From Deltaproteobacteria bacterium (lineage in GTDB: Bacteria > Bdellovibrionota_C > UBA2361 > JANWWW01), in assembly GCA_025055295.1 (NCBI GenBank), contig JANWWW010000007.1, positions 1 through 42,724 on the forward strand: DNA of 42,724 nt. The letters are read 5' to 3'. Position numbers and translations under genes: made by a program. This document shows, in pieces, positions 22,060 through 36,128 of this stretch. Position 1 is the first letter of the stretch. Each line of letters starts with the position of its first letter. A model generated the notes under the pieces. The model was not told the origin of the DNA. It worked only from the letters and a program-made list of their open reading frames with translations, and made no database searches.

Positions 22060-22536
22060 ATGCACATTTTTTTGGTAATTGTCACGATTTCTCAATTTGC
22101 TGAGCTATTTAGTCAACAGGAACTTGATTTAATCAAAGTACCCTCAGAGTTTGGATGCTTTTAACAGTAAAACCGCTCAAATAAAGTAGAATGATTAAAT
22201 CAAAGTAAATCGTACTAGACGATAGACTGGTGCAACGTGGGCTTATCTACTGGCTTGGTTCGGAACCCTCGGGCTCCTGGCAGGGGACATTACAACGATC
22301 TGAATTGGAAAGATACATTTTAAGTCATAAAGCTCAAACCTTCTAGAACAGTCCATACTTGTAACTTTCTGAGAAAATCGTTGCAAAACGTTCCTGTCTA
22401 TGTCACGCCAAGTTGGATGTCTCATATTAAACGGCACATTTATGACCACGGCGGGATTTGGATTTATAACTTTAAAGTACCTCTTTCTTCAAATAATGTC
22501 TTGAGGGCGTATTTAATTTTTCACGCTAAACTATAG
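22060..22536 (+). pseudogene. Possible relic of a secreted protein
   Basis: ATG 22060 opens a 34-residue frame, MHIFLVIVTISQFAELFSQQ followed by ELDLIK, ending at 22164. It looks like a signal peptide plus mature start and resembles the start of the dockerin-like protein at 22965 (which has NSQQELWLNEA). Downstream plus-strand segments in changing frames also look coding, for example GLIYWLGSEPSGSWQG (about 22236-22283) and HIYDHGGIWIYNFKVPLS (about 22434-22487), up to a stop at 22534. The minus strand of 22243-22449 is open too, so the strand is not fully settled. No intact product remains. Confidence 0.3.
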
Positions 22537-22964
22537 AAAGCGACTTTAGAAACCTTTTTGTTAGCTGCTTAAAATAGTCAAAAAGTTTCAATTCTTTAAA
22601 GGGAAAGAAATTTTTTTTGATTATTTTCGGGTTTTTATCGTGATGGAAATTACTCAAATTTGCCGACTGTTAAACTCTCAAATTGCGTATCAAAACCGTC
22701 ACCGAACTGACAAAAAATCTAACAACCCAACGCTGGAGTGAAAAATTTTATAAATTCTCAGGGTGTTTTTTTAGCTTTTTACATATGAACATAGAGACTA
22801 GTAGCGTATCAAGCTTTTGTAATTAAATGCGTTACTAGCCTGCCAAAGATATTTCGTGATCAATATGATTTTGATACTCCTCGTTCATGAGGAGCAATAA
22901 AAAATTTTTCGCAATAATTTGATGAATAATGAAAATTTTTCAGATACCATATTAGTGAACTACC

Positions 22965-24059
22965 ATGGTAAGGCTATTTTTAACGATCTTGGCAGTTTTA
23001 GGTTTTGATAAGCTGAATTCACAACAAGAACTTTGGTTGAATGAAGCATATCCTCAAATGCTTCAGTGGTTTTATCAACACAGTGGGCAAACGAATTGGA
23101 GAGAACCCATTGCCAACAACAGGATAAACCTTTGGGCTCACATCGCATGGAGTTTCTTTCAAAACTGGGGTCATTTAAAAGGCGTCAGAAGGGGCTACCA
23201 CTATACTCCAGACACTAGAGGCATAACTTCTCCCGTTGAACTGACTTATGTCGAATATTTATGTTTGGCAATTAGGTACCCGGGTAGCGGTTGTGGTGTT
23301 CGGCACTCCGGTCCGTGTCATGATCCTGCAATCAGTCAGAGTCAAGGTTGGTGGCCAACTATTTTGGCCTACGAGGTTCCACTAGGCATGGATGCTTTAC
23401 AAGCAAACAGGAGAGCGAGGGATTATTACTGGTATTATAGGCCTACTGAATCGGAGGTGAGCGCGATTGTTACTGAAAACACAGGCGCTGGTGGCTATGA
23501 TTCGATTGGCTGTAGGTACAACAATATTCTTCTTCACAAATTTAATTTGCCACAACGAGCTAGGTTGAGATTACAACCAGATAGAAGGACATTACTTGTG
23601 TTAATGTTTACGCCGAAGAATGATAATTATGGGTTCCTAAGCAGTGATATGAATCCAAGGGCGGTGATGAGTTATAGAAGACCATACGATTGCACCAACG
23701 GAAACGGACACACGGCATTAGATTATGAATACGAAACTTTTCAAGGAGAGGATCCTTCAAGGTTATGCACGTTCGATTATATCGCAGGAAACTGGTTCCC
23801 TTATCGTTCTGCGCATGAAATAAGCTGTTATTGCAATCGATTACCTTCTTATCAAGAATACTGGGTATTTGGTTTTAAGGGAAGAAGGCTTGGCGGTTGC
23901 GGGGCTGATATTGATTGCTCAGGTTGTGTAGATGATAGTGATCTTTTAACTACATTATTTAACTTCGGCTCATCGGGTCAAGGAGATGTTAACAACGATG
24001 GTGTTGTGGATGATGGTGATTTACTAAGTGTTTTATTTGCTTTTGGGCAGGGGTGTTAA
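22965..24059 (+). CDS. Secreted protein with C-terminal dockerin-like calcium-binding repeat pair
   Basis: A 364-residue protein with a short signal peptide (MVRLFLTILAVLGF, cleavage likely near SQQ). The body (about 20-300) is aromatic- and cysteine-rich and of no family I know; it contains WWPTILAYEV and NGNGHTALDYEYE. The end holds two dockerin type I-like loops, DIDCSGCVDDSDLL (315-328) and DVNNDGVVDDGDLL (341-354), each followed by an F-x-F-G turn, and a terminal Cys. Such loops bind calcium and in cellulosomes hold a cohesin, but in many other bacteria they are terminal modules of unknown partner. Secretion to the periplasm or surface is likely. It stands alone in a gene-poor region. 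Confidence 0.75.
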   Translation: MVRLFLTILAVLGFDKLNSQQELWLNEAYPQMLQWFYQHSGQTNWREPIANNRINLWAHIAWSFFQNWGHLKGVRRGYHYTPDTRGITSPVELTYVEYLCLAIRYPGSGCGVRHSGPCHDPAISQSQGWWPTILAYEVPLGMDALQANRRARDYYWYYRPTESEVSAIVTENTGAGGYDSIGCRYNNILLHKFNLPQRARLRLQPDRRTLLVLMFTPKNDNYGFLSSDMNPRAVMSYRRPYDCTNGNGHTALDYEYETFQGEDPSRLCTFDYIAGNWFPYRSAHEISCYCNRLPSYQEYWVFGFKGRRLGGCGADIDCSGCVDDSDLLTTLFNFGSSGQGDVNNDGVVDDGDLLSVLFAFGQGC

Positions 24060-24152
24060 AGACAAGTATCAAATAATTACTTTAAATTTCCGATTTCTGA
24101 GAATTGAAGTTAACATCCAACTAGGAATACTAGTCGACCGATTTCTGACTTA

Positions 24153-24345
24153 TTATTGATTTTTCTGCATGGCTGCTTTAAGGTGCTCCGTTAAATTGAC
24201 TATCATTAGGCTGAACTTGCCAAAAAAGTAATGTTTTTGACAATCAATAAGAAAATGTTGTTCTAATTTGTGCCAATGAGTTGAAGTAGAGAAGTAACAA
24301 TCTTTTCATTTTCCTTGGTGAGTTTTAGCAAGAAAAAGCCATAAA
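24153..24345 (-). pseudogene. Possible small gene relic (frameshifted)
   Basis: The minus strand reads GFFLLKLTKENEKIVTSLLQ from about 24340 and then loses frame. A second frame carries on as HWHKLEQHFLIDCQKHYFF and ends VNLTEHLKAAMQKNQ at the stop 24155-24153. Both parts look like helical protein sequence and join by a single-base change near 24285. I do not recognise a family. Confidence is low because the fragments are short. Confidence 0.25.
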
Positions 24346-24671
24346 TCAACTACATCTTTTTTAGAGATAAGCTAAAACCTGTCCCTAATCTACATCGGCT
24401 TTCCTATACTAGATATTTTCTTTACTAGTAAACCTTTTACATGCTGGGATTACTAAATTTAACCAAAACTACTTGCAAAGTAACCTCAATTTCCTTTTAA
24501 AAACTGTTTTGGTTAAGCTAAAACCAGCACCGAATAACACTTTACTATTTACCTTTACGAATAGCCCCTAATTAAAGGCTCGCCCTCACTTATCCGACGT
24601 CAATTATACGGCAACAGTTTTGTAAATGATATTTGTAAATGATACCTATGAAGGCAATTGTTACCGTTTTT
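24346..24671. other. Intergenic stretch with short repeats
   Basis: About 325 nt without a supported gene. It holds an 11-bp perfect inverted repeat, TTAACCAAAAC (24459-24469) and GTTTTGGTTAA (24506-24516), with a 36-nt spacer. It also holds a 12-bp direct repeat TAAGCTAAAACC (24368-24379 and 24514-24525). No function is evident. Confidence 0.4.
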
Positions 24672-24857
24672 TTATTGTCGCGTGTCGTGATTGGATGTAC
24701 CAGGGCACTTTGAGCCGCAGTCCCTGGAACAATCACAGTCCTTACTGCCTGAGGGACAAGTACAATGTTTACAATCACAAGTTGATTTTGACTGACCTGC
24801 GAATGCAGGGGAGACAATAAAAACTAGTAAACTTAATAGATACAAAATTTTTTTCAT
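24672..24857 (-). CDS. Secreted cysteine-rich mini-protein, possible metal binder
   Basis: A 61-residue protein. Residues 1-20 form a textbook signal peptide (MKKILYLLSLLVFIVSPAFA, cleaved before GQ). The mature part is only about 41 residues and has eight Cys at 27, 29, 32, 34, 41, 43, 47 and 51, arranged as CxCx2CxC-x6-CxCx3Cx3C, with a His beside the first group. That density suggests metallothionein-like metal binding or a disulfide-rich periplasmic peptide; which one cannot be decided. It has its own good promoter (24867-24895) giving a message with only about 3 nt before the ATG. I know of no named family. Confidence 0.7.
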   Translation of the reverse strand: MKKILYLLSLLVFIVSPAFAGQSKSTCDCKHCTCPSGSKDCDCSRDCGSKCPGTSNHDTRQ

Positions 24858-24866
24858 AGTGCTTTT

Positions 24867-24895
24867 AGGGTAATAACTTTATTGGTATTTGTCAA
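24867..24895 (-). promoter_or_regulatory. Sigma70-type promoter of the cysteine-rich gene
   Basis: Perfect TTGACA (24895-24890), 17-nt spacer, then TACCCT (24872-24867), which keeps the key first, second and last bases of the -10 box. Predicted start near 24860, so the ATG at 24857 is almost at the 5' end of the message. Confidence 0.6.
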
Positions 24896-25147
24896 TTACA
24901 AAAAGTACGTACCCTTCCTAAAATCACACACGGAAATTTACATAAGAATGTATTTAAGAAATACAAGCCTAAAAATCCCTCCCTTAAAAATCTCAGGCCA
25001 CATTTCCATACTACGTTTTGCAGATTCCAAGATATTTTAAATGAATTAATTTGATTAAGGATTTACTAGTTTTTTAAATTCATTTCATGAGCGGGGTTCT
25101 TTTAAAACTATTTAGACATTTTCAAAGGTAACGCAACCATAAATTAC

Positions 25148-25999
25148 TCAACTTTTAAGATTAAAAAACCCATGTTCAGCAAGTTTTGCAAGAAGCCTTT
25201 CGTCCAAGTACTCGTGCAAGCTTTCCAAAGAGACTTTATACGTCGAATCAAGAACTTGCATATTTTTTTTGATATCTTCAACAAAGCCCTTAATTAAATT
25301 ACTGACCTTACCTTCTCCAAGAGTTAGAAATGAATTGTTGACCTTTTTTGAGGTTAAATCCTTGTCTCTGTCGTCAATATCGTCCGCAATCTGAAAAAGC
25401 TGACCGAAAGCAACACCCAGATTCCTTAGGCAACTGCAAGCCTCTTTTTCTAACTTGGTTACAATGCCCGCAGCTTCAAAAATCGCAGAAAAAAGCTCAG
25501 CTGTTTTTAGTTTTCCAACCTCAACCGGATTAGAACCTTCCGATAGGTCAAGAATTTGTCCCTCGATAAGCCTCATATTTGCGGTCAAAAATAATTTTGT
25601 CAGATTACAACTAATCTCCACGTCAAAACCGGACAACAGTATCGCATCAAAGCCCTTAGTTTGAAGCCAGTCCCCAAACAAGATTGCATCGGCTTCGGAG
25701 AATTTTTTGTGAATGGTTGGCATTCCTCTTCGGTTGTCGTCATTGTCAAGCGCTGGAAGATCATCGTGAACAAGGGAAGCTTGGTGAATAAGCTCTATAC
25801 CGCATGCCACCCTTAAAAGGCTGTTAAAGCGATTTCTGTATAATTCGCTATCGATGTCATTTACCAGGCGCAAAAACATAACAGGTCTTGTTCGCTTGCC
25901 GCCCGTGTTTATAAGATATCCATACATGGTGGCTAATGATGAGTTCTCTGATTCAAAAATTTCTTCCAAGGCGCTTGAAACAACATTCTCAAGTGTCAT
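25148..25999 (-). CDS. ispA: Polyprenyl diphosphate synthase (farnesyl/geranylgeranyl type)
   Basis: A 283-residue trans-prenyltransferase that condenses isopentenyl diphosphate with allylic diphosphates. The first aspartate-rich motif is D79-D80-x4-D85 within HDDLPALDNDDNRRG, and the second is DDIDD at 206-210 in LFQIADDIDDRDKDL. GGKRTRP near 33-39 binds the substrate phosphate. The four-residue gap between Asp in the first motif is the bacterial (type II) farnesyl synthase form, so farnesyl or geranylgeranyl diphosphate is the likely product. It starts at ATG 25999 and is divergent from rsmD with only 55 bp between them, where both promoters must lie. Confidence 0.9.
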   Translation of the reverse strand: MTLENVVSSALEEIFESENSSLATMYGYLINTGGKRTRPVMFLRLVNDIDSELYRNRFNSLLRVACGIELIHQASLVHDDLPALDNDDNRRGMPTIHKKFSEADAILFGDWLQTKGFDAILLSGFDVEISCNLTKLFLTANMRLIEGQILDLSEGSNPVEVGKLKTAELFSAIFEAAGIVTKLEKEACSCLRNLGVAFGQLFQIADDIDDRDKDLTSKKVNNSFLTLGEGKVSNLIKGFVEDIKKNMQVLDSTYKVSLESLHEYLDERLLAKLAEHGFFNLKS

Positions 26000-26054
26000 G
26001 CTTTTAAGTAAATTTTATAATTTATCTTACTTCAATTAAATTGAATTATTTTTC

Positions 26055-26603
26055 ATGACCAAAGTATCCGCGGGAGAAAAGAGGGGGTTCAGATTAAAAT
26101 CAGTTAAGTCCAAACACTTGAGACCGCTAACCAACAAAGTAAAAGACGCGATTTTTAATATCATTGGAGATTTGTCATCATATCCGGTAGTACTTGACCT
26201 TTTTGCCGGAACCGGCTCCTTTGGCTTTGAAGCTTTAAGCCGTGGAGCGAAAATTTGCTATTTCGTTGAATTAAACAAAAGAATTTTTAGGATCCTTGAG
26301 GAAAACTGCAAGATTCTGGGATACACCAACAACGTAAAACTTTTTAACGCGGACGCTTTTCGCATAATAGCAAAAACAACTAAACAGTTTGACATCATTT
26401 TCGTGGCCCCTCCGCAGTTTAAAGGCATGGCCTTTAGAGCAATGTCGGAAATTTTTGCCCGGCCTAACATCGTAAAACCATCGGGATTGGTTATCGCTCA
26501 AGTTGATCGAAGGGAAGACTTAAGAATATCGCCGACCTATTTTAGACTTTTTGATGATAGAATTTATGGTGATACCAGAATTTTATTTTATGAAAGAATT
26601 TAA
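26055..26603 (+). CDS. rsmD: 16S rRNA (guanine966-N2)-methyltransferase RsmD family
   Basis: A 182-residue SAM-dependent methyltransferase. LRPLTNKVKDAIFNII (22-37) is the RsmD start signature, and VLDLFAGTGSFGFEALSRGA (46-65) is the SAM-binding motif I. The catalytic motif usually D/N-P-P-Y/F reads FVAPPQF (116-122), with Ala in place of the acidic or amide residue. I recall APPQ forms in other RsmD-family members, for example from Cyanobacteria, so this may be a subfamily and not damage. It is the first of three plus-strand genes; the next overlaps its end by 14 nt. Confidence 0.85.
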   Translation: MTKVSAGEKRGFRLKSVKSKHLRPLTNKVKDAIFNIIGDLSSYPVVLDLFAGTGSFGFEALSRGAKICYFVELNKRIFRILEENCKILGYTNNVKLFNADAFRIIAKTTKQFDIIFVAPPQFKGMAFRAMSEIFARPNIVKPSGLVIAQVDRREDLRISPTYFRLFDDRIYGDTRILFYERI

Positions 26604-26976
26604 GTTTTTTATTTTATGCTCTGTTATTTTGACCGCATGTGGGAAACCAAACCTCTCAAAAGAATTCCAGCATCAAAAAGAACTAAAACAAACCCCGGAA
26701 TTGTTCACTTTCTCGGTGGAAGAAAAGCCAAAAGTGATGGCAAATCTCGCGACTCTTTTCAATCATATACTAAAAGTTCCTTTCCAGACTTTGAAATCAG
26801 GTAGAGAAACCAGATTACTCTTTCAGCTGGACTCCGAGCCCTACGAAATTCTGATTCAATGCAACGACCAAAATTGCGCTCTAACTAGTATTTCAAAGAG
26901 TCCCAGCTCCACTTTGGGAAAATCGATAAACTATTTTCTTGAAACTGGTATATGGGAATACATGAAAAAAAATTAA
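26590..26976 (+). CDS. Small predicted lipoprotein
   Basis: A 128-residue protein from ATG 26590 (MKEFKFFILCSVILTACGKP). The lipobox LTAC ends at Cys17, so it should be lipidated and held in a membrane. The mature part has no domain I know; TFSVEEKPKVMANLATLFN and YEILIQCNDQNCALTSISK suggest a small alpha/beta fold. It overlaps the end of rsmD by 14 nt and stops 7 nt before coaD, so the three are one operon. An earlier in-frame ATG at 26551 would put extra residues before the signal peptide and is less likely. Confidence 0.75.
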   Translation: MKEFKFFILCSVILTACGKPNLSKEFQHQKELKQTPELFTFSVEEKPKVMANLATLFNHILKVPFQTLKSGRETRLLFQLDSEPYEILIQCNDQNCALTSISKSPSSTLGKSINYFLETGIWEYMKKN

Positions 26977-26983
26977 CGCTGTA

Positions 26984-27496
26984 ATGCTAAAGGCGGTTTT
27001 TCCGGGAACCTTTGATCCAATAACGGTTGGTCATCTCGATGTTCTAAGACGCGCTTTAAAAATTTTCGACAGGATCACGATCGCGATCTTTGAAAACATT
27101 CAGAAAAAACCGTTGTTTCCATTGGAGGATCGACTTGCTTTCATTTCCAAAAGTACGCAAGTTTTTCGAACTAAAGTGTCGGTTGAAACCTTTGAAGGTC
27201 TACTTTCCGAATATTGCAAAAAAAATCAAATTCGGTTTGTTATTAAGGGATTAAGAGCCTTGTCCGATTATGAATACGAAACAAAAATGGCCTTAATAAA
27301 TCGTGAAATAAACCCTGATTTGGAAACAATATTTTTAGTTTCTCCCCCGGAGATGGCCACAATATCATCTTCTGTTGTTCGGGAACTTCTATACTTTAAT
27401 GGAGATATTTCAAGGTATGTCCCTGAAAAAGCCCTGCAACCCATAATCGCGGCTTACAAAAAACTTCAGTCTGGCAAACTTAGAAATAATAATTAA
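26984..27496 (+). CDS. coaD: Phosphopantetheine adenylyltransferase
   Basis: A 170-residue enzyme that makes dephospho-CoA from ATP and 4'-phosphopantetheine, the next-to-last step of coenzyme A synthesis. The nucleotidyltransferase start FPGTFDPITVGHLDV (6-20) holds the T-x-G-H motif. FVIKGLRALSDYEYE (about 86-100) and ISSSVVREL (about 130-138) are family signatures. It is slightly longer than the E. coli enzyme. It starts at ATG 26984, 7 nt after the lipoprotein gene, and ends 10 bp from the convergent GT-C gene. The rsmD-coaD pairing is common in bacteria. Confidence 0.96.
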   Translation: MLKAVFPGTFDPITVGHLDVLRRALKIFDRITIAIFENIQKKPLFPLEDRLAFISKSTQVFRTKVSVETFEGLLSEYCKKNQIRFVIKGLRALSDYEYETKMALINREINPDLETIFLVSPPEMATISSSVVRELLYFNGDISRYVPEKALQPIIAAYKKLQSGKLRNNN

Positions 27497-27506
27497 ACAA
27501 CTGAGT

Positions 27507-29495
27507 TTACCGAAAGCAAATCTTCCTTATTTTCCCTACTAGCTCGCTAAAATTGTGAATCGGTGGCGAAACAAAGTAAACGTTGTTCAAATAACCCCTC
27601 TCGGTGAACCTAGATCCGACTGTGAAAGGAAAATTCGCCTGACAAATTAGCCGACCATAAAAACACTTCATCTTCCTCTGCCTGCGCCTCAGCCTATAGT
27701 CCTTGTAACGATAAAGATGAGCGCGCGATGTAATTAACACACTCGGCTCATTTGGCAAAGTATCTAATTTTTGCGCGTATACATTTGACAAATGAAGATG
27801 ATACAAAAGTTTATCACATGTGATCTTTGGAACATACCCAGTATGAATGATAAGAGACGCTTTGGTATTACACACAAAATCACTTAGTTTTTTTTCTGTG
27901 GGTTGAAGGATTATTAAAGTGAGCGTGATCAAATTCCACAAAACATGCCCTAACAATAATGCAAGCTTGAACGAATTCCATCTTAAAAGGCAAATGGCTG
28001 GCAAAAGAAAAGTATAAGTTAACAAGTAATACCTTTCAGGCTGTGGCGGAGGCTTGCCGGAGGATATCTCAAAGGGAAGGTAATATATTAAAAACAAAGC
28101 GAAAAGTAATAAATGCCTTTTACTCATTAAATTATAAAGCGACAGCATTGCAATTAATCCAAATAAAACGTTTTCATACACGAAAAAAGTTCTGTAAAAC
28201 CCGTATAAAAAGAAAAACTCTAATCCTTTTAAATAAAACCCGTGATGCTCATTCATTCCCCTTAAATACTCAAAACGAAGACCGTTAATAAAGGCACTGA
28301 AATATTTAATTGATTCTGGAAACAAAACCGGTATAACAAGCGCCGACATAAAAAAGAAAAAAAATATCGGCCTTAGCGACCAAGACTTAGCACAAAAAAG
28401 GGCTAAAATAACACCAATGTTCAGAAGGCCTGTGTACTTAAAACAGAACGAGACAATTGAAAAGAACAAGGAAGCGAGCATGAGCAGACTGGATCTGTTT
28501 TGTAACCATAGAAATAAAAAAAAATAAGCCCAACTAGTGGCAAAAAAAAGACCACTGTCCTCCTTCAAATAACTCCCGGTGACAAATAAAAGACTTGAAC
28601 TCAACGACAGTATGAAGCTTAAACAGAAGCCATGCAAACCCGCCAGCAAAAAACCGATCAATGAGACACCAACACAACCAAAAAAAACCCATACAGTTTG
28701 AATTACTCTAAAAAAGTTTTCAAAATTTCTTACATCAAAATACCTGGCCAAAACAACCGGTATCCGAATAGTTAGAAGCGGGTGATTTATCTTTTCTGCT
28801 TGAAATGAGCCTTGGCTTAAGGCATGCGCTTGTGAAAGTTTTAAATTCTCGTCAGGATGATATGACCACTCGGAAAACCTGTCAAGGGACAACCACTTTA
28901 GAGATAGAAATATTAAAAGCATCACAAAGCTTGCGACACGTAAAGCCCGGCCAGACTTAAAAGTTTCACTTAACGTTCCCGCTGGGATTTTGGTTTCAAA
29001 CAACCACAGTAATTTCAAAAGGAGTAAAAATAAATAGAAAAATCCATAATAGTAGGCATTACCATCATACAAAAAAAAATAAGCGTGGATTGCACAAATT
29101 AAAGATATTGTGAAGCTTTGCCAAAAATTGAAAAACAACCAAAAGCAAACAGACATAGTCATAACAAACAAACTTACCGACAATTTGGCAAGAAAGTGCG
29201 ACGGACTGGAGGGAAAATAGCTTGACGGAGAAGTTAGCATAATATTGTCTTTACAATTGCACAACGGACAATTTAATTTTCTGTTTTTAGTTTCGTGATT
29301 GCATGTACCGATTACCTGCAAGACGAGACCCCCGATTTTAAGAGTGGAACCAAAAAGATAAGAAAGTTCTTTCTGACTGTTCAAAACCGCGCAGTCCTGG
29401 TCTTTGTAATAAAGTGAATTAAAAAAAAAATTAAAGGCGAGCGATAAAAAAATCTTTATGCATAGCAGAACTACTTTTGCCCTGTGAGTGTTCAC
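27507..29495 (-). CDS. Polytopic GT-C glycosyltransferase (GT39-like)
   Basis: A 662-residue integral membrane protein with about ten or more helices. The key loop is SYHPDENLKL (HPDE at 213-216), where the acidic pair serves as catalytic base in GT39/ArnT-like enzymes. Further landmarks are KEDSGLFF, CFKYTGLLNI, RTFFVYENVLFG and PQPERYYLL. These also appear in the same order in the protein at 34020-36128, so the two are paralogues. The first 105 residues are different: they hold a Cys cluster (C65, H67, C76, C79, C81) that could bind metal. It starts at GTG 29495. It probably transfers a sugar from a polyprenyl phosphate donor at the outer face of the inner membrane; acceptor unknown. Confidence 0.72.
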   Translation of the reverse strand: MNTHRAKVVLLCIKIFLSLAFNFFFNSLYYKDQDCAVLNSQKELSYLFGSTLKIGGLVLQVIGTCNHETKNRKLNCPLCNCKDNIMLTSPSSYFPSSPSHFLAKLSVSLFVMTMSVCFWLFFNFWQSFTISLICAIHAYFFLYDGNAYYYGFFYLFLLLLKLLWLFETKIPAGTLSETFKSGRALRVASFVMLLIFLSLKWLSLDRFSEWSYHPDENLKLSQAHALSQGSFQAEKINHPLLTIRIPVVLARYFDVRNFENFFRVIQTVWVFFGCVGVSLIGFLLAGLHGFCLSFILSLSSSLLFVTGSYLKEDSGLFFATSWAYFFLFLWLQNRSSLLMLASLFFSIVSFCFKYTGLLNIGVILALFCAKSWSLRPIFFFFFMSALVIPVLFPESIKYFSAFINGLRFEYLRGMNEHHGFYLKGLEFFFLYGFYRTFFVYENVLFGLIAMLSLYNLMSKRHLLLFALFLIYYLPFEISSGKPPPQPERYYLLTYTFLLPAICLLRWNSFKLALLLGHVLWNLITLTLIILQPTEKKLSDFVCNTKASLIIHTGYVPKITCDKLLYHLHLSNVYAQKLDTLPNEPSVLITSRAHLYRYKDYRLRRRQRKMKCFYGRLICQANFPFTVGSRFTERGYLNNVYFVSPPIHNFSELVGKIRKICFR

Positions 29496-29510
29496 AGAGT
29501 TATACTAATG

Positions 29511-31466
29511 TCAAAAAACCACTCCCTCTTTGCAGGCAAATTTCGTGTAAGTTGAGCCAAGCCCCGGCTGATCATCTTTGAAAAGAAAAAATCTCAAAAA
29601 TTCCAAATACGACATTTCGTTCAAATTTTGATAAATCCAACTTCTGATCGGGATTTTCATTGCATTGTTAAAACCATACGGTTTTATATCTTTGCCCTCA
29701 TCGATAAAAATACAGTCTAAGTTAAGATCTTTTATACTTCCTTCTTCCACAAAATAGATAAACTTGGGATCATCTTTAACATACCATGCAAGAGGCCATG
29801 TAGCTTCACCCGTATAACCTATCTTTAAACTTCTTCCAAGTGGGTTTACACCGCTTGTTTTTATCAGCCTGTATATGAAATCTCTGAATTCAATGTTGGT
29901 TTGAACCTGACTCAACAAGGAAAACTCGCGCGCTTTTAAGCTGAAATTAACTCGTAAGTTCAAAAGCGTGTAAATTAAGAAGAAAATAAACAACCCTGTG
30001 CTCCAACTGACTTTCAATTCGATACAATTCCATACCTTTAAAATTAGCCATGTAAACACCGAAACAAACAGAGTTCCTAGACCGTAATAGTAAAACAAAA
30101 TCCCTAAACGCGCCAGTTGGTTTCCCTCCTCAACCTGTACGTTTTGAGACACAAAATTTAAAAGCCGTGAGATTACATAAAATAAAACAATAAGGCCTCC
30201 AGCAGCTGACAAGCTTTTTATTAGCTCATTTACGCCGTTCTTAGCCCAGTAAATACCGAAAAAAATATAACCAAAAAACAAGGGATAAACGGCTAACCAT
30301 GGAACTTTTTCCCCCACATACGAGTAAACAAAAAGGTTGGAAAAGAACAAATAACACAGAAAAGATAGCTTCGGATCATTCTTCAAATAATAATCAGTGA
30401 TCCAAAAACCAAAAATCAAAATATACATACAGGAAATTAAATCGACAGCCCCTTTTAGCTTAAAAAACTTGATGATCCCTGATACCACGGGCATATCTTT
30501 GATTAAGTCGTAAACTGGTGTGCCAAAGGGAACCGATGTCATCACAACCGGGAACAATAAAAAAAACACGACAAAAATAAACCGCTCATACACCCGACAC
30601 GGAACAGTCATCACAAAATGTGAAATGGTTCCAACGAGAAAAACAAAAAAAACCTGCTCATGAAAGGCAAAAATCGAAAGGTGAAAAGAGAAAGGTCCCG
30701 AAATTCTTTCCACTTTGTGCATTTCGTACCAATGCTTCAAAGATTTGTAGGTGACATCCAAAACGCCGTTCCAGTTTCTAAACTCAGTAGTAATCAAATA
30801 AACGAATAAGAGCAAACCAACCCCTAAGCCTAATAAAAAATTTCTTAAATCCGACTTACTGAAATTACAATTTACCGGAAAATTTGAATTCCTTAACCAA
30901 ACGTAAAGCAGGTAAGCTGACAATAGGACGATATTTATAAAAAAATTGGCCTTGGTGGCAAACTGTAAAGCTAACCCTACAAAAATCAACCAATAGATCC
31001 GGCGGTAACATCCTATAAAAAATACCGTTAATCCCAGGATAACAATATAATCTTCTCTTGCAAACCTTGAATAGTAAATAAGAACCGGCGAAAGAAGTAG
31101 TAGTGACGTAACAACTACCAATTCCAAGACTGAAAAGAAACCTGTCAAACAAAACAACGCGAATATCGTCACAATAGAAAAAAAGATGATTGGTAAACGC
31201 GGGCTTATGTCAGAGTTAAAATCTACAAAATGATAAAAATACCGCAAAATTAAGTAGAATGTTGGTCCGTGATAAACAGGGTCGTATTTGTAAAAATTCT
31301 GACTAGGCTCTTTGTAGAAATTGTACGCGAGCTGAGCGTGAATTGACTCGTCGTGGTGCAGAGGTCGTTCGTCAATTTTATAAAATCTAAAAAATATCCC
31401 AAGAAAAAGAGCCGTTATGAAAACTAGAAAATTTCTTAAACCTAAATGACTTAAGAATTCAATCAA
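29511..31466 (-). CDS. Agl23-like GT-C membrane protein (flippase-associated family)
   Basis: A 651-residue integral membrane protein. The start matches the Agl23 family (TIGR03663): RPLHHDESIHAQLAYNFYKE (34-53) followed by YKYDPVYHGPTFYLI. HHDE at 37-40 is the acidic catalytic loop of GT-C enzymes. About ten helices follow, then a soluble tail of about 130 residues (near 520-651). Family members are found next to polysaccharide and glycosylation genes; the exact reaction is unproven. It starts with TTG 31466, whose bases overlap the transketolase stop TGA in TTGA, so it is coupled to that gene. Confidence 0.78.
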   Translation of the reverse strand: MIEFLSHLGLRNFLVFITALFLGIFFRFYKIDERPLHHDESIHAQLAYNFYKEPSQNFYKYDPVYHGPTFYLILRYFYHFVDFNSDISPRLPIIFFSIVTIFALFCLTGFFSVLELVVVTSLLLLSPVLIYYSRFAREDYIVILGLTVFFIGCYRRIYWLIFVGLALQFATKANFFINIVLLSAYLLYVWLRNSNFPVNCNFSKSDLRNFLLGLGVGLLLFVYLITTEFRNWNGVLDVTYKSLKHWYEMHKVERISGPFSFHLSIFAFHEQVFFVFLVGTISHFVMTVPCRVYERFIFVVFFLLFPVVMTSVPFGTPVYDLIKDMPVVSGIIKFFKLKGAVDLISCMYILIFGFWITDYYLKNDPKLSFLCYLFFSNLFVYSYVGEKVPWLAVYPLFFGYIFFGIYWAKNGVNELIKSLSAAGGLIVLFYVISRLLNFVSQNVQVEEGNQLARLGILFYYYGLGTLFVSVFTWLILKVWNCIELKVSWSTGLFIFFLIYTLLNLRVNFSLKAREFSLLSQVQTNIEFRDFIYRLIKTSGVNPLGRSLKIGYTGEATWPLAWYVKDDPKFIYFVEEGSIKDLNLDCIFIDEGKDIKPYGFNNAMKIPIRSWIYQNLNEMSYLEFLRFFLFKDDQPGLGSTYTKFACKEGVVF

Positions 31467-33424
31467 ATCTCCAAAATGTCTTTAAGGAATCTGGCGAATT
31501 TGTCTGGTGTAAAGCCAAAATACTCGGCCAGGTCTTTATCGCTGCCCGAAGCTCCAAAAGTTTCAATGCCGTAGAAGTAAAAGGTTTTATTCATCGCTCC
31601 CAGGAACAGTTTTACCGAAGATGGTAATGAAGAAGCCTCGACAAAAACTATTTTCTGACTTTGGAAAATGTCCCGAAGAGACCCACTTTTTTCAAGCAAA
31701 AGTTCAAAACTAAAAACACTAAAAAGGTCTATGTCATCTCTACCCAGCTGCTTTATCGCGCGAAAAGCCACTTCAACTTCAGAACCGGTTGAAATTACGG
31801 TTAACAGAGGTTTTTCACACGAGATAAGCTTGGAGTAACCATTTTCGAGGTGAGTTAAATCTTTGTCATAAAAGCTCTGATCGAAAGACTGTCTCGAAAG
31901 GATAATTACACAAGGTTTTGATTTGCTCTTATGCCACCACCAATACGCGTAAGCGCATTCGACTGGGTTTGAAGGCCTAAAAGTAACTAAATTTGGTATT
32001 GACCTGAGATGGCTTAAGTGTTCAATTGGCTGATGTGTTGGGCCATCTTCGCCAAGAAAAACTGAGTCATGCGTAAAAATATACAGCACAGGTAACTCGC
32101 TTAAAGCGCTCAGCCTCAACGATGGTTTCAGATAATCCAAAAAACACAAAAAAGTCGAAACAAACGGTTTGAAGAAACCGCTTAGAGCAAGACCGTTTGC
32201 TATCCCAGCCATAGCGTGTTCTCTGACCCCAAATCTTATGTTGCGTCCAAGGAAATTCGAACTATTTATATCACTACTTCCTTTTAAGTATGCCTTTGTG
32301 GAAGGTTCTAGATCGGCAGAGCCTCCAACGATAGACTGGTCTTTTGAAGCCAGATATTCCAGCATTTTAGATCCCGTGTTTCTTGACGCATCTTTGTATC
32401 CTTTTTCAGGACTAGTTATCTCCAACGCATATCTCACAAATTCCTCAAATGTAATATCAGCAACCATCGGATACACAAAACTGCTCTCTGATCCTATGTA
32501 ACTGGCCTGTTTAAGTTTTTGAGCCTTAACCTGACTAACAAGTTCAACAACACTCTGGGGGACATAAAACTCCTCCAAATCCAGTCCCAAGTTAATCTTT
32601 GTAACCTTGACGTTGTCCTTTCCAAGCGGAGATCCATGAACTTCGTGAGTATTGGCTTTTGGAGAACAATAACCAATTTCAGTTCTAAAAATTATCAACT
32701 TCGGGGCTGCAACACCGCTGTTTAGAACCTTTTGAAAGGCTTCATCAATTTCCCTGTAGTCGTGACCATTTGCTGTGTAAACTTCCCAACCAAAAGCTCT
32801 AAACCGCGCTGCAACATCTTCGGTAAAACAAACTGAAGTAGGGCCTGCAAGACTTATCTTGTTGTCATCATACATTAAAATCAGATTGTCTAAGCCAAGA
32901 AAACCAGCCAATGAGCATGCCTCATAACTGATCCCTTCCATTAAATCTCCGTCGCTACACAAGCAAAACACGCGATAACCGGTAAAATTGGGATTTCGAG
33001 CGCCGTAAAGCTTAGCAGCCAACGCAAGACCAACACTGTTTGCAACCCCTTGTCCCAAAGGGCCTGTGGTTGCTTCAACACCTTCGAGCAGATGAGACTC
33101 AGGATGGCCTGCCAATCCGCTACCAAGCTTCCTGAAGGATTTTAAATCCTCTATGGATAGAAAATCTGTAAACAGAGCCAAAGCGCTATACAGTAAAGCG
33201 GAACCGTGACCAGCCGATAAAACAAATCTGTCTCTAAGAGGCCACTTTGAGTTTTTTGGATTGAAACGCAGAAACTTGCAAAAAAGAACCGCCACAATAT
33301 CAGCGCATCCAAGCGGCAAGCCCGGATGTCCGCTATTAGCGCTCTCAACTTGATCTATGGAAAGCCCCCTTAAAACGTTCGCTAAAAGCTTAATTTCTGC
33401 GTAAGACAGAGAGCTTACTTCCAT
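31463..33424 (-). CDS. tkt: Transketolase
   Basis: A 653-residue thiamin-diphosphate enzyme of the pentose phosphate pathway, from ATG 33424 (MEVSSLSYAEIKLLANVLRG). ESANSGHPGLPLGCADI and LSAGHGSALLY are substrate-site signatures. CSDGDLMEGISYEA holds the GDG cofactor motif, ending near MYDDNKISL. The pyrimidine domain is shown by FLGRNIRFGVREHAMAGIAN. Length is normal for a full-length enzyme. It overlaps the thioredoxin-like gene by 10 nt and the Agl23-like gene by 4 nt, so this housekeeping enzyme lies within a tightly packed run of membrane glycosyltransferase genes. Confidence 0.97.
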   Translation of the reverse strand: MEVSSLSYAEIKLLANVLRGLSIDQVESANSGHPGLPLGCADIVAVLFCKFLRFNPKNSKWPLRDRFVLSAGHGSALLYSALALFTDFLSIEDLKSFRKLGSGLAGHPESHLLEGVEATTGPLGQGVANSVGLALAAKLYGARNPNFTGYRVFCLCSDGDLMEGISYEACSLAGFLGLDNLILMYDDNKISLAGPTSVCFTEDVAARFRAFGWEVYTANGHDYREIDEAFQKVLNSGVAAPKLIIFRTEIGYCSPKANTHEVHGSPLGKDNVKVTKINLGLDLEEFYVPQSVVELVSQVKAQKLKQASYIGSESSFVYPMVADITFEEFVRYALEITSPEKGYKDASRNTGSKMLEYLASKDQSIVGGSADLEPSTKAYLKGSSDINSSNFLGRNIRFGVREHAMAGIANGLALSGFFKPFVSTFLCFLDYLKPSLRLSALSELPVLYIFTHDSVFLGEDGPTHQPIEHLSHLRSIPNLVTFRPSNPVECAYAYWWWHKSKSKPCVIILSRQSFDQSFYDKDLTHLENGYSKLISCEKPLLTVISTGSEVEVAFRAIKQLGRDDIDLFSVFSFELLLEKSGSLRDIFQSQKIVFVEASSLPSSVKLFLGAMNKTFYFYGIETFGASGSDKDLAEYFGFTPDKFARFLKDILEI

Positions 33425-33972
33425 TTTATTGAGCAACCCTCAGCATTAAAAGAGCCGACAGGCAAATCATCAAAAGCTTTGCCATTGAAATATCTTTCAA
33501 AGATCAGCTCCAAATAGTTCATGGTCGCGCGTGTGGCATCAAGCGGGTTGTCAACAACCCCGCCGTGGTAGATAAGTACCCTCTTATCGTTAAAAAAGTA
33601 AGCTTCCGGGGTGCATTGAGCATCAAATTTTCTTGCCACCTCTTGAGTTTCGTCAAAGCAATAGGGGAAACAAAGCTCAATTTCTTTGGCAAACTCCTTC
33701 ATGTTTTCAAACGAGTCCTGAGGATACTTGACGGGATCATTAGAGTTAATTCCAACGACTGTCAATCCGTGAGACATCCATTTTTTTACGGTAGAGTTGA
33801 CCGTTCTGATACTTCCAACAACATAAGGACAGTGATTACACATGAATAAAATAAGAAATCCTTTTCCCTCAAGATCCCCGCTGTTGATAGTTCCAAAATT
33901 ACAGCTTGGCAAGCTAAACTCAGGCATCAAGGACCCTAAAGGTAACAAATCGCTATGCTTTTCTCTTTTCAT
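33415..33972 (-). CDS. Thioredoxin-like (AhpC/TSA-type) redox protein
   Basis: A 185-residue soluble protein with thioredoxin fold. FMCNHCPYVV carries a C-x-x-C pair (C45, C48). VVGINSNDPVKYP follows, and the cis-proline loop is CTPEAYFF. This is the cytoplasmic family often annotated as thioredoxin family protein or redoxin with the CNHCPYV motif; physiological partners are not known. No signal peptide is seen. It starts at ATG 33972 and its stop lies 10 nt inside transketolase, so the two are translationally linked. Confidence 0.88.
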   Translation of the reverse strand: MKREKHSDLLPLGSLMPEFSLPSCNFGTINSGDLEGKGFLILFMCNHCPYVVGSIRTVNSTVKKWMSHGLTVVGINSNDPVKYPQDSFENMKEFAKEIELCFPYCFDETQEVARKFDAQCTPEAYFFNDKRVLIYHGGVVDNPLDATRATMNYLELIFERYFNGKAFDDLPVGSFNAEGCSIKWK

Positions 33973-34019
33973 TTTCGTCTCATTTTACTGAATTACCGAC
34001 TGAAAATTAATCATAAATT

Positions 34020-36128
34020 TTACCTGCTGTACCCAAATTCAACCGACTCGTTCCACATCCTCTGGAACTTAACCATATCGAACACCAATAAATCTATTTG
34101 CGAATTGAAGAAAGGTTTTGCCCAGAACGCGTTCGCCAAAGAGCCGACCTTTTCTCCATGGGTTTGAAACAGTTCGCACTGAACAAACCTCACCCACGCG
34201 CGCCTGTTGATTTGTCCCCTATGATATCTTTCGCAAAAAAAACTATTCCATGCAAACATCACCTGATTTGTTAACATAGATTGTGGCGTTTCCCAAAGGT
34301 CATCTTTGTCTGGCAGTTTTTGCAAAAAATTATCCACCGAGAAATACTGTTTGTCTAGTGACATTCTGGGGAACGAGTACCCGAAAAATACGATTTTGCT
34401 AAACAGTCCCTTAGAAGACTGGACTATAGTAAGAGCTACTTGCGTCGTATCGGGCAAAAATGCAAGCTTCCCTTTAACATAAAAACCAACTATTAAATGC
34501 AAAAGAAGCAACATTCTTCCAAAACTTGAGTTTGTAACAAAATAACCTATTAGCATAGAAGCAAAAATGTAGCCCGGCAGCAAGTACCTGTGAAACTGCG
34601 GAAAAGCTTTCCCTAGATTTATCTCACAAACAAAGTAATAAAAAAGAAACAAAAGAACGATTAGCCCGCTGTTAAGGGTCAAATGTCTGATTGCATAAAA
34701 AAGCCCGCCAATTATCAAAATCGAAGGTAAAATGTTTTCATACCTGAAGAACGTCTCAAAAAAGTAAAAAAGAAACATGTAATCAAGAGAAGAAACCAAT
34801 ATGTTTGTATGACCATGCTCTACTCTGCTTACTTCTTTTAAGAATCCCCGAAGGAATTTGCCAAAATTGTTCTCGTCAACCTCGTTAATCACACAAAAAA
34901 CGGCGAAACTTAAGGATGCGCCCAAGACAATCGACGAAACACTTTCTACAAACCTCCGAAAATTTGAAATATCGGATGATGCCATTTTCACAAAGACCAA
35001 AAACATAGAATACATTACCGTTAAAACTCCGGTGTATTTGCTCGAGAAAGCAAACCCAGCGGTAACAAAAACCAAAATGATCCGAAAAATACCGGGTTTT
35101 TCAAAAAAAAACAGAAGGCTTAAAATATTTAAACCGGTCCACAAACAAAATATCATGTCTTCCTTTATGGCAACAGATGCTACAAAAGGCAGGAGCCAGG
35201 AAACCCATATTAAAACTGAATTAAGTGCTACCTGATTGTTCCAGATGCGATTGCTTGCCATAAATATAGCCGCTGTCAAAACCAAAAACGATGCTAAACT
35301 TGCCAAACGTGAATAAAAAGATATTTCGAATCTGTCAATCTTTTCGCCAAAAACTCGAACGAAGCTCGCTCCCGATTTTACTAAGGCTAGCGGATGGAGA
35401 AACATAGATTGCTCAAGTGGCTTATCCGCTAAAAGCCTTTCAATTTGAAGAATTTTTATCGGCTCGTCAGGGTGAAATATTGTTCTTGCAGTTTTGTCAT
35501 AAAAAACCAGAGTAACGAATAGATTTAAACCAAGGCATAAAAAAACAAAAATGCGACTAAAATTTGGAATAAAACAAGCCGTGCATTTATAATCGATAAC
35601 CGGTTTCAGAGTAGTCAAAATAAATGTTATTAGGAGCGCTAAAGGCAAGTAGAACGCGTTAAACTTTGAATATCCGAATAGCCAAATACAATAAAAAGGC
35701 AAAATCGCAAAAGCGACAGCCCAGCTTGATAGGAATAGAAGACTTAGTAAAACAGACGAAACAATAATTAACCATAAACTAGGGATCGATTGCGCTAAAA
35801 TTAAATCTACCGAGCTGGCTTTTTTCAGTATGAAATCAACCGCCTGACATTTTTTGTTGAATGTAACTCTTACGAAGTTTTCCGACTTTTCAATATCGCA
35901 GTCAGGGTTATCTTTAAAACGAATTTTTTTTGGAAACTTAAGATATTTAACGGACGAAAAAAATGAACTGTTTTCAAACCTAGTTAAAATTCTTTCTGTC
36001 TCTTCGTCAAAAAAAAAAGAGGGACTTACGGCAAAGTACGCTTTTTGCTCGGGCTTAAAATAACCGACAATAGTTCCCAGTATGAAAAAAAAAAGGCAGG
36101 AAAAAACAAACCTCACAAGCAAAACCAA
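34020..36128 (-). CDS. Polytopic GT-C glycosyltransferase (GT39-like), paralogue of 27507-29495
   Basis: A 702-residue membrane protein. Residues 1-22 form a first helix, about 30-105 a probably periplasmic domain, and ten or so further helices follow. The catalytic-loop motif TIFHPDEPIKIL has HPDE at 219-222. It shares with the 662-residue neighbour the ordered landmarks KEDMIF, SSKYTGVLTV, ETFFRYENILPS and PQFHRYLLPGY. The long C-terminal tail (from about 560) holds charged periplasmic sequence. The frame begins at TTG 36128 and no ATG is close, so the start is uncertain. It heads the minus-strand run with the thioredoxin-like, transketolase and other GT-C genes; the first spacer is 47 nt. 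Confidence 0.72.
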   Translation of the reverse strand: MVLLVRFVFSCLFFFILGTIVGYFKPEQKAYFAVSPSFFFDEETERILTRFENSSFFSSVKYLKFPKKIRFKDNPDCDIEKSENFVRVTFNKKCQAVDFILKKASSVDLILAQSIPSLWLIIVSSVLLSLLFLSSWAVAFAILPFYCIWLFGYSKFNAFYLPLALLITFILTTLKPVIDYKCTACFIPNFSRIFVFLCLGLNLFVTLVFYDKTARTIFHPDEPIKILQIERLLADKPLEQSMFLHPLALVKSGASFVRVFGEKIDRFEISFYSRLASLASFLVLTAAIFMASNRIWNNQVALNSVLIWVSWLLPFVASVAIKEDMIFCLWTGLNILSLLFFFEKPGIFRIILVFVTAGFAFSSKYTGVLTVMYSMFLVFVKMASSDISNFRRFVESVSSIVLGASLSFAVFCVINEVDENNFGKFLRGFLKEVSRVEHGHTNILVSSLDYMFLFYFFETFFRYENILPSILIIGGLFYAIRHLTLNSGLIVLLFLFYYFVCEINLGKAFPQFHRYLLPGYIFASMLIGYFVTNSSFGRMLLLLHLIVGFYVKGKLAFLPDTTQVALTIVQSSKGLFSKIVFFGYSFPRMSLDKQYFSVDNFLQKLPDKDDLWETPQSMLTNQVMFAWNSFFCERYHRGQINRRAWVRFVQCELFQTHGEKVGSLANAFWAKPFFNSQIDLLVFDMVKFQRMWNESVEFGYSR

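Follow-up and report, generated by a model that had tools for sequence, protein, structure and literature searches.

A probable orphan gene for an exported eight-cysteine peptide, best read as metallothionein-like, in a deltaproteobacterial genome

INTRODUCTION

A 1.1-kb stretch separating neighboring genes on a deltaproteobacterial contig contains a 61-codon open reading frame whose product looks exported and carries eight cysteines. Is this frame a gene and, if so, would its product bind metal outside the cytoplasm, form disulfides, or do something else? The available text of one source describes metallothioneins as cytosolic metal-sequestering proteins (PMC8790569), and the accessible part of another notes them among cyanobacterial exoproteins, with a role that is unclear (PMC4894872). 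In the literature searched, which had most subscription papers outside it, we met no natural bacterial metallothionein described as carrying a signal peptide of its own. If real, such a peptide would bear on whether metallothionein-like peptides serve bacteria as metal buffers beyond the cytoplasm and would offer a clean case for how cysteine clusters survive an oxidizing envelope. We analyzed the whole 42,724-nucleotide stretch around the frame (the window) together with related genomes, viral contigs, plasmids, and phages.

RESULTS

The frame lies on the minus strand (24672 to 24857), with its ATG at 24857, its stop at 24672 to 24674, and the product MKKILYLLSLLVFIVSPAFAGQSKSTCDCKHCTCPSGSKDCDCSRDCGSKCPGTSNHDTRQ. 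The clean signal peptide of the original prediction corresponds to residues 1 to 20 (MKKILYLLSLLVFIVSPAFA; 24798 to 24857, minus strand), an N terminus that passes a crude rule of positive charge, hydrophobic stretch, and AxA-like site; we infer cleavage after AFA, where the hydrophobic stretch ends. A lipoprotein signal is unsupported in the 61-residue product (Pfam LPAM_1, 12.1 bits against a cutoff of 20). The mature peptide would be GQSKSTCDCKHCTCPSGSKDCDCSRDCGSKCPGTSNHDTRQ (24675 to 24797, minus strand), 41 residues with eight cysteines in the predicted CxCx2CxC-x6-CxCx3Cx3C pattern, which the sequence bears out; an exact pattern match places the first six cysteine codons (CxCx2CxC-x6-CxC) at 24729 to 24779 on the minus strand. 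The mature peptide has a net charge of +1 and not one Ala, Val, Ile, Leu, Met, Phe, Trp, or Tyr, residues that make up 44.2% of the products of 24 window genes.

In its own genome, the peptide gene adjoins a synthetase-rsmD-lipoprotein-coaD block whose order is kept in G001, a genome of the same family. No metal gene was recognized among the neighbors. At 22965 to 24059, the window encodes an exported-looking 364-residue protein with two C-terminal EF-hand/dockerin-like repeats (DIDCSGCVDDSDLL... and DVNNDGVVDDGDLL...), which the NCBIfam dockerin_GC model scores at only 8.2 bits against a cutoff of 29. At 27507 to 36128, three large multispanning proteins of 662, 651, and 702 residues, membrane glycosyltransferase-like by eye, surround a transketolase-like gene.

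To ask how often such a frame arises, we simulated 120 genomes of 1.76 Mb with the dinucleotide makeup of the window and scored open frames of 40 to 120 residues. The signal-peptide rule alone is met by 1 of 90 such frames in the window, the one under study, and by 959 of 507,407 simulated frames. Requiring in addition at least eight cysteines with three CxC, criteria chosen after the peptide had been seen, leaves the same single window frame and none of the 507,407; four simulated frames across the 120 genomes pass the rule with at least six cysteines. When eight cysteines were placed at random over 41 positions, CxCxxCxC followed by Cx3C appeared in 0.27% of 200,000 trials, also a post hoc choice of pattern. 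By codon use, the frame scores poorly as a native gene. The overall codon score is lower than that of all 176 61-codon pieces taken from window genes; a synonymous-only score, from which amino acid composition is removed, falls below 98.9% of those pieces and is reached by 71.3% of 94 pieces from spurious frames.

Upstream, TTGACA (24890 to 24895, minus strand) and TACCCT (24867 to 24872, minus strand) form a candidate -35 and a weak candidate -10 matching TATAAT at three of six positions. With a 17-nucleotide spacer and 9 nucleotides between the -10 and the ATG, this geometry would put the transcription start near 24860, as originally predicted. The boxes and their spacing stand, but a promoter here is not supported: a consensus promoter scan of 22500 to 27500 listed 10 sites, against a shuffle mean of 12.9, and this site was not among them. 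Separate transcription is plausible given the 290 nucleotides to the upstream gene, although the promoter is weak. Within 24867 to 24921, an inverted repeat (AGGGTAATAACTTT and AAAGTACGTACCCT, 79% complementary, 21 nucleotides apart) brackets the -35 to -10 region, where it is a possible operator, and an imperfect palindrome at 24896 to 24921 overlaps it. An Rfam search returned nothing credible.

For gene starts in general, we collected 74 from the window and five other stretches of the genome (L304 to L308). TANNNT is slightly raised near these starts (29 against 22.5 in shuffles, with 34 of 500 shuffles reaching 29), and Shine-Dalgarno motifs are weakly raised (10 of 74 against 5.4, with 14 of 500 shuffles reaching 10). 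A four-base Shine-Dalgarno motif is not enriched over internal ATGs (14.7% of 75 starts versus 16.2% of 401). Since both weak signals occur at gene starts, near-leaderless expression of the peptide gene is a possibility. The same figures hint at much non-Shine-Dalgarno initiation in this genome; the assembly yielded no 16S rRNA from which the anti-Shine-Dalgarno sequence could be read.

The original prediction called the peptide conserved, which our searches contradict. No homologue was found in the other 44 genomes of a 45-genome class sample that includes its own (a phylum-level query returned the same number, 45), G001 among them, nor any relative in the named genomes and viral contigs searched, and tblastn against plasmids and phages gave nothing better than an E value of 0.8. 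Whole-peptide matches at E values up to 1 occur in 47 of 96 genomes, its own included; those elsewhere have E values of 0.009 or weaker and reflect chance or signal-peptide similarity. We examined 30 loci of such matches, 29 of them from other genomes. The only other frame there to pass the cysteine filter is an unrelated one of 44 residues (L023), a second locus (L005) is similar through the signal peptide only, and the other frames read are likewise not cysteine-rich exported peptides. The mature peptide matches, besides itself, a single 36-residue frame (G004, E value of 0.03), which we rejected.

Searching related genomes with the cysteine pattern, the check that had been proposed, likewise produced no exported homologue with eight cysteines. 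The exact six-cysteine DNA pattern matches in 5 of the 45 class genomes; outside the window these are low-complexity TGC or TG repeats, except for one match in G039 whose frame has no preceding Met. A four-cysteine pattern has six further matches in the peptide's own genome and G001, and five of these (leaving out L051) lie in frames of 12 to 42 residues without an export-type start. The seven-cysteine pattern occurs in at least 120 stretches in genome contigs and at least 120 in viral contigs; among the 258 matches listed, 86 have internal stops and 172 are open, mostly as Cys- or Arg-rich repeats. Filtering 309 loci (2.37 Mb) for a signal peptide and cysteines left six frames, of which only the window's looks like a compact exported peptide; one is part of a 416-residue frame (L104), and the remaining four were judged spurious by eye. 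G001, about 80% complete, keeps the synthetase-rsmD-lipoprotein-coaD order, and its contig stops just beyond the synthetase, at the position expected for the peptide. Given this contig end and completeness, loss and gap are indistinguishable there. In the searched data, the gene stands as a lineage-restricted orphan candidate.

Pfam, NCBIfam, PHROGs, and PDB gave no credible match to the full eight-cysteine spacing. The earlier statement that no named family carries it holds for that full spacing but not for the first half, which is the CxCxxCxC of SmtA-type metallothioneins (PF02069). That family gives no match at E values up to 1 for the whole peptide or 10 for the mature one, is absent from the peptide's own genome (about 85% complete, so that absences from it are soft), and scores above its cutoff in only 4 of 382 genomes. 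Members such as L298, from a genome of the same class (FCSCPRCKC...KCYCSEAC), and L310 to L312 (for example, KCACENCLC...YCSEAC) share with the window peptide CxCxxCxC and a later Cx3C. A profile of L310 to L312 scores the window peptide at -6.0 bits, which 427 of 1,000 full shuffles and 569 of 1,000 shuffles with the cysteines kept match or exceed; the peptide is no statistical member of PF02069. Hydrophobic and aromatic residues (the same eight types) are absent from the cysteine core of the window peptide and of a frame on viral contig L235, whereas L134 has two, L067 seven, and L298 eight. Small, metallothionein-like frames rich in closely repeated CxC (for example, CDCTDCDCKGDCKNCDCDCSCCK) lie on viral contigs L235 and L237; no Pfam match was found for the L235 frame.

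A single-sequence AlphaFold model of low confidence (mean pLDDT 65.4, pTM 0.37; block pLDDT 77 to 79 over residues 31 to 50) places two short strands in the knuckle (residues 26 to 28 and 31 to 33) and a helix over residues 43 to 47. The SmtA knuckle has comparable strands and helix. Foldseek found no match to the model.

DISCUSSION

The protein features of this frame speak for a gene, whereas its codon use gives no such support; both would be compatible with a gene that is young or acquired. The frame is probably a real orphan gene for an exported cysteine peptide, best read as metallothionein-like. That it instead stands open by chance in the 1.1-kb intergenic stretch is improbable in our estimate: codon scores at or near the bottom of the gene range, the lack of a homologue in the searches, and an unremarkable promoter all favor chance, but signal peptide and cysteine framework do not occur together in any simulated genome, and the odd amino acid makeup partly explains the low overall codon score.

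From sequence, composition, and a motif common to bacterial metallothioneins, we favor an exported cysteine peptide that likely binds metal, a reading that draws on the precedent of CxCx2CxC in SmtA-type metallothioneins and on a cysteine core free of hydrophobic residues. A lineage-restricted gene would supply a peptide exported through the Sec pathway and then processed; the 41-residue chain would act as a small metallothionein outside the cytoplasm, with eight thiolates, from the CxCxxCxC knuckle together with the CxCx3Cx3C half, offered to a soft metal (Zn, Cd, or Cu(I)) that would be buffered or sequestered in the periplasm or on the cell surface. Of this, we infer the cleavage, where the peptide resides, that it binds metal, and its role, and we give the whole, from real lineage-restricted gene to extracytoplasmic metallothionein, an even chance. 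Counted against it are the missing homologue, the shuffle-level profile score, the low codon scores, the low-confidence model with no Foldseek match, and the lack of a recognized metal gene nearby, as well as VKOR and DsbA-family proteins that suggest an oxidizing envelope. A bolder version, in which a shortened SmtA-like knuckle is exported by Sec to the periplasm or surface as a minimal metallothionein whose metal protects the thiols within a VKOR-DsbA oxidizing envelope, is a long shot.

The main and serious rival, unlikely as we judge it, is an extracellular mini-protein with four disulfides made by DsbA-type/VKOR-type oxidation, serving as a compact structural, signaling, or EGF-like module. 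What makes it serious is that the genome encodes VKOR (99.1 bits) and two DsbA-family matches, so that the envelope is probably oxidizing; the peptide is also exported with an even number of cysteines, and the sole PDB sequence matched by the whole peptide, very weakly (E value of 4.9), is pikachurin. The CxCxxCxC...CxC spacing also resembles integrin-type EGF modules. Yet no hydrophobic or aromatic side chain is available around which a fold could pack, and the mature part matches no PDB sequence and neither EGF nor any other Pfam family at E values up to 10, where HMMER filters may drop weak matches. DsbB was not found in the roughly 85% complete genome, and one DsbA match (L302), judged by eye, resembles an isomerase-type relative more than a periplasmic oxidase. 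A toxin-like peptide for antagonism or signaling, a toxin being among the roles first suggested, or a thiol redox buffer would likewise be small, exported, and cysteine-rich, but we hold either very improbable: the mature part, at a net charge of +1, has no hydrophobic residue, which makes a toxin less likely; no immunity or dedicated export gene was recognized alongside; and there is no MNIO enzyme to mark a bufferin-type RiPP. With zero matches to PF05114 in the genome (about 85% complete), a bufferin, an MNIO-modified RiPP, is not indicated.

How the metallothionein-like reading of this peptide sits beside known systems can be set out as follows. Bufferins, in the available part of their description, are exported, MNIO-modified cysteine peptides shown to help under copper stress (PMC12452194). 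That text gives them a Sec signal peptide, where the window peptide has an N terminus that passes the crude rule, and 4, 6, or 12 cysteines, where the window peptide has eight. Three small cysteine-rich peptides from Caulobacter (L067), a Bacteroidetes metagenome-assembled genome (L134), and a viral contig (L235) combine CxCxxCxC with repeated CxC and match no Pfam family, as is true of the window peptide; they differ in having 10 to 14 cysteines and no signal-peptide-like start. The SmtA-type metallothioneins (PF02069, for example, L298 and L310 to L312) share the early CxCxxCxC, the later Cx3C, and the small size, and the CYCSEAC of L298 resembles by eye the CxCSRDC of the window peptide. 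L298 and L310 to L312 differ from it in having no visible signal peptide and a linker that is longer and contains hydrophobic and aromatic residues, and the C-terminal CxC tail of SmtA-type proteins is missing from it. PmtA of Pseudomonas aeruginosa, according to the accessible part of its description, is a bacterial metallothionein reported at the cell surface that lacks a signal peptide (PMC11237414); the window peptide, by contrast, has a signal-like start and would carry a signal peptide of its own.
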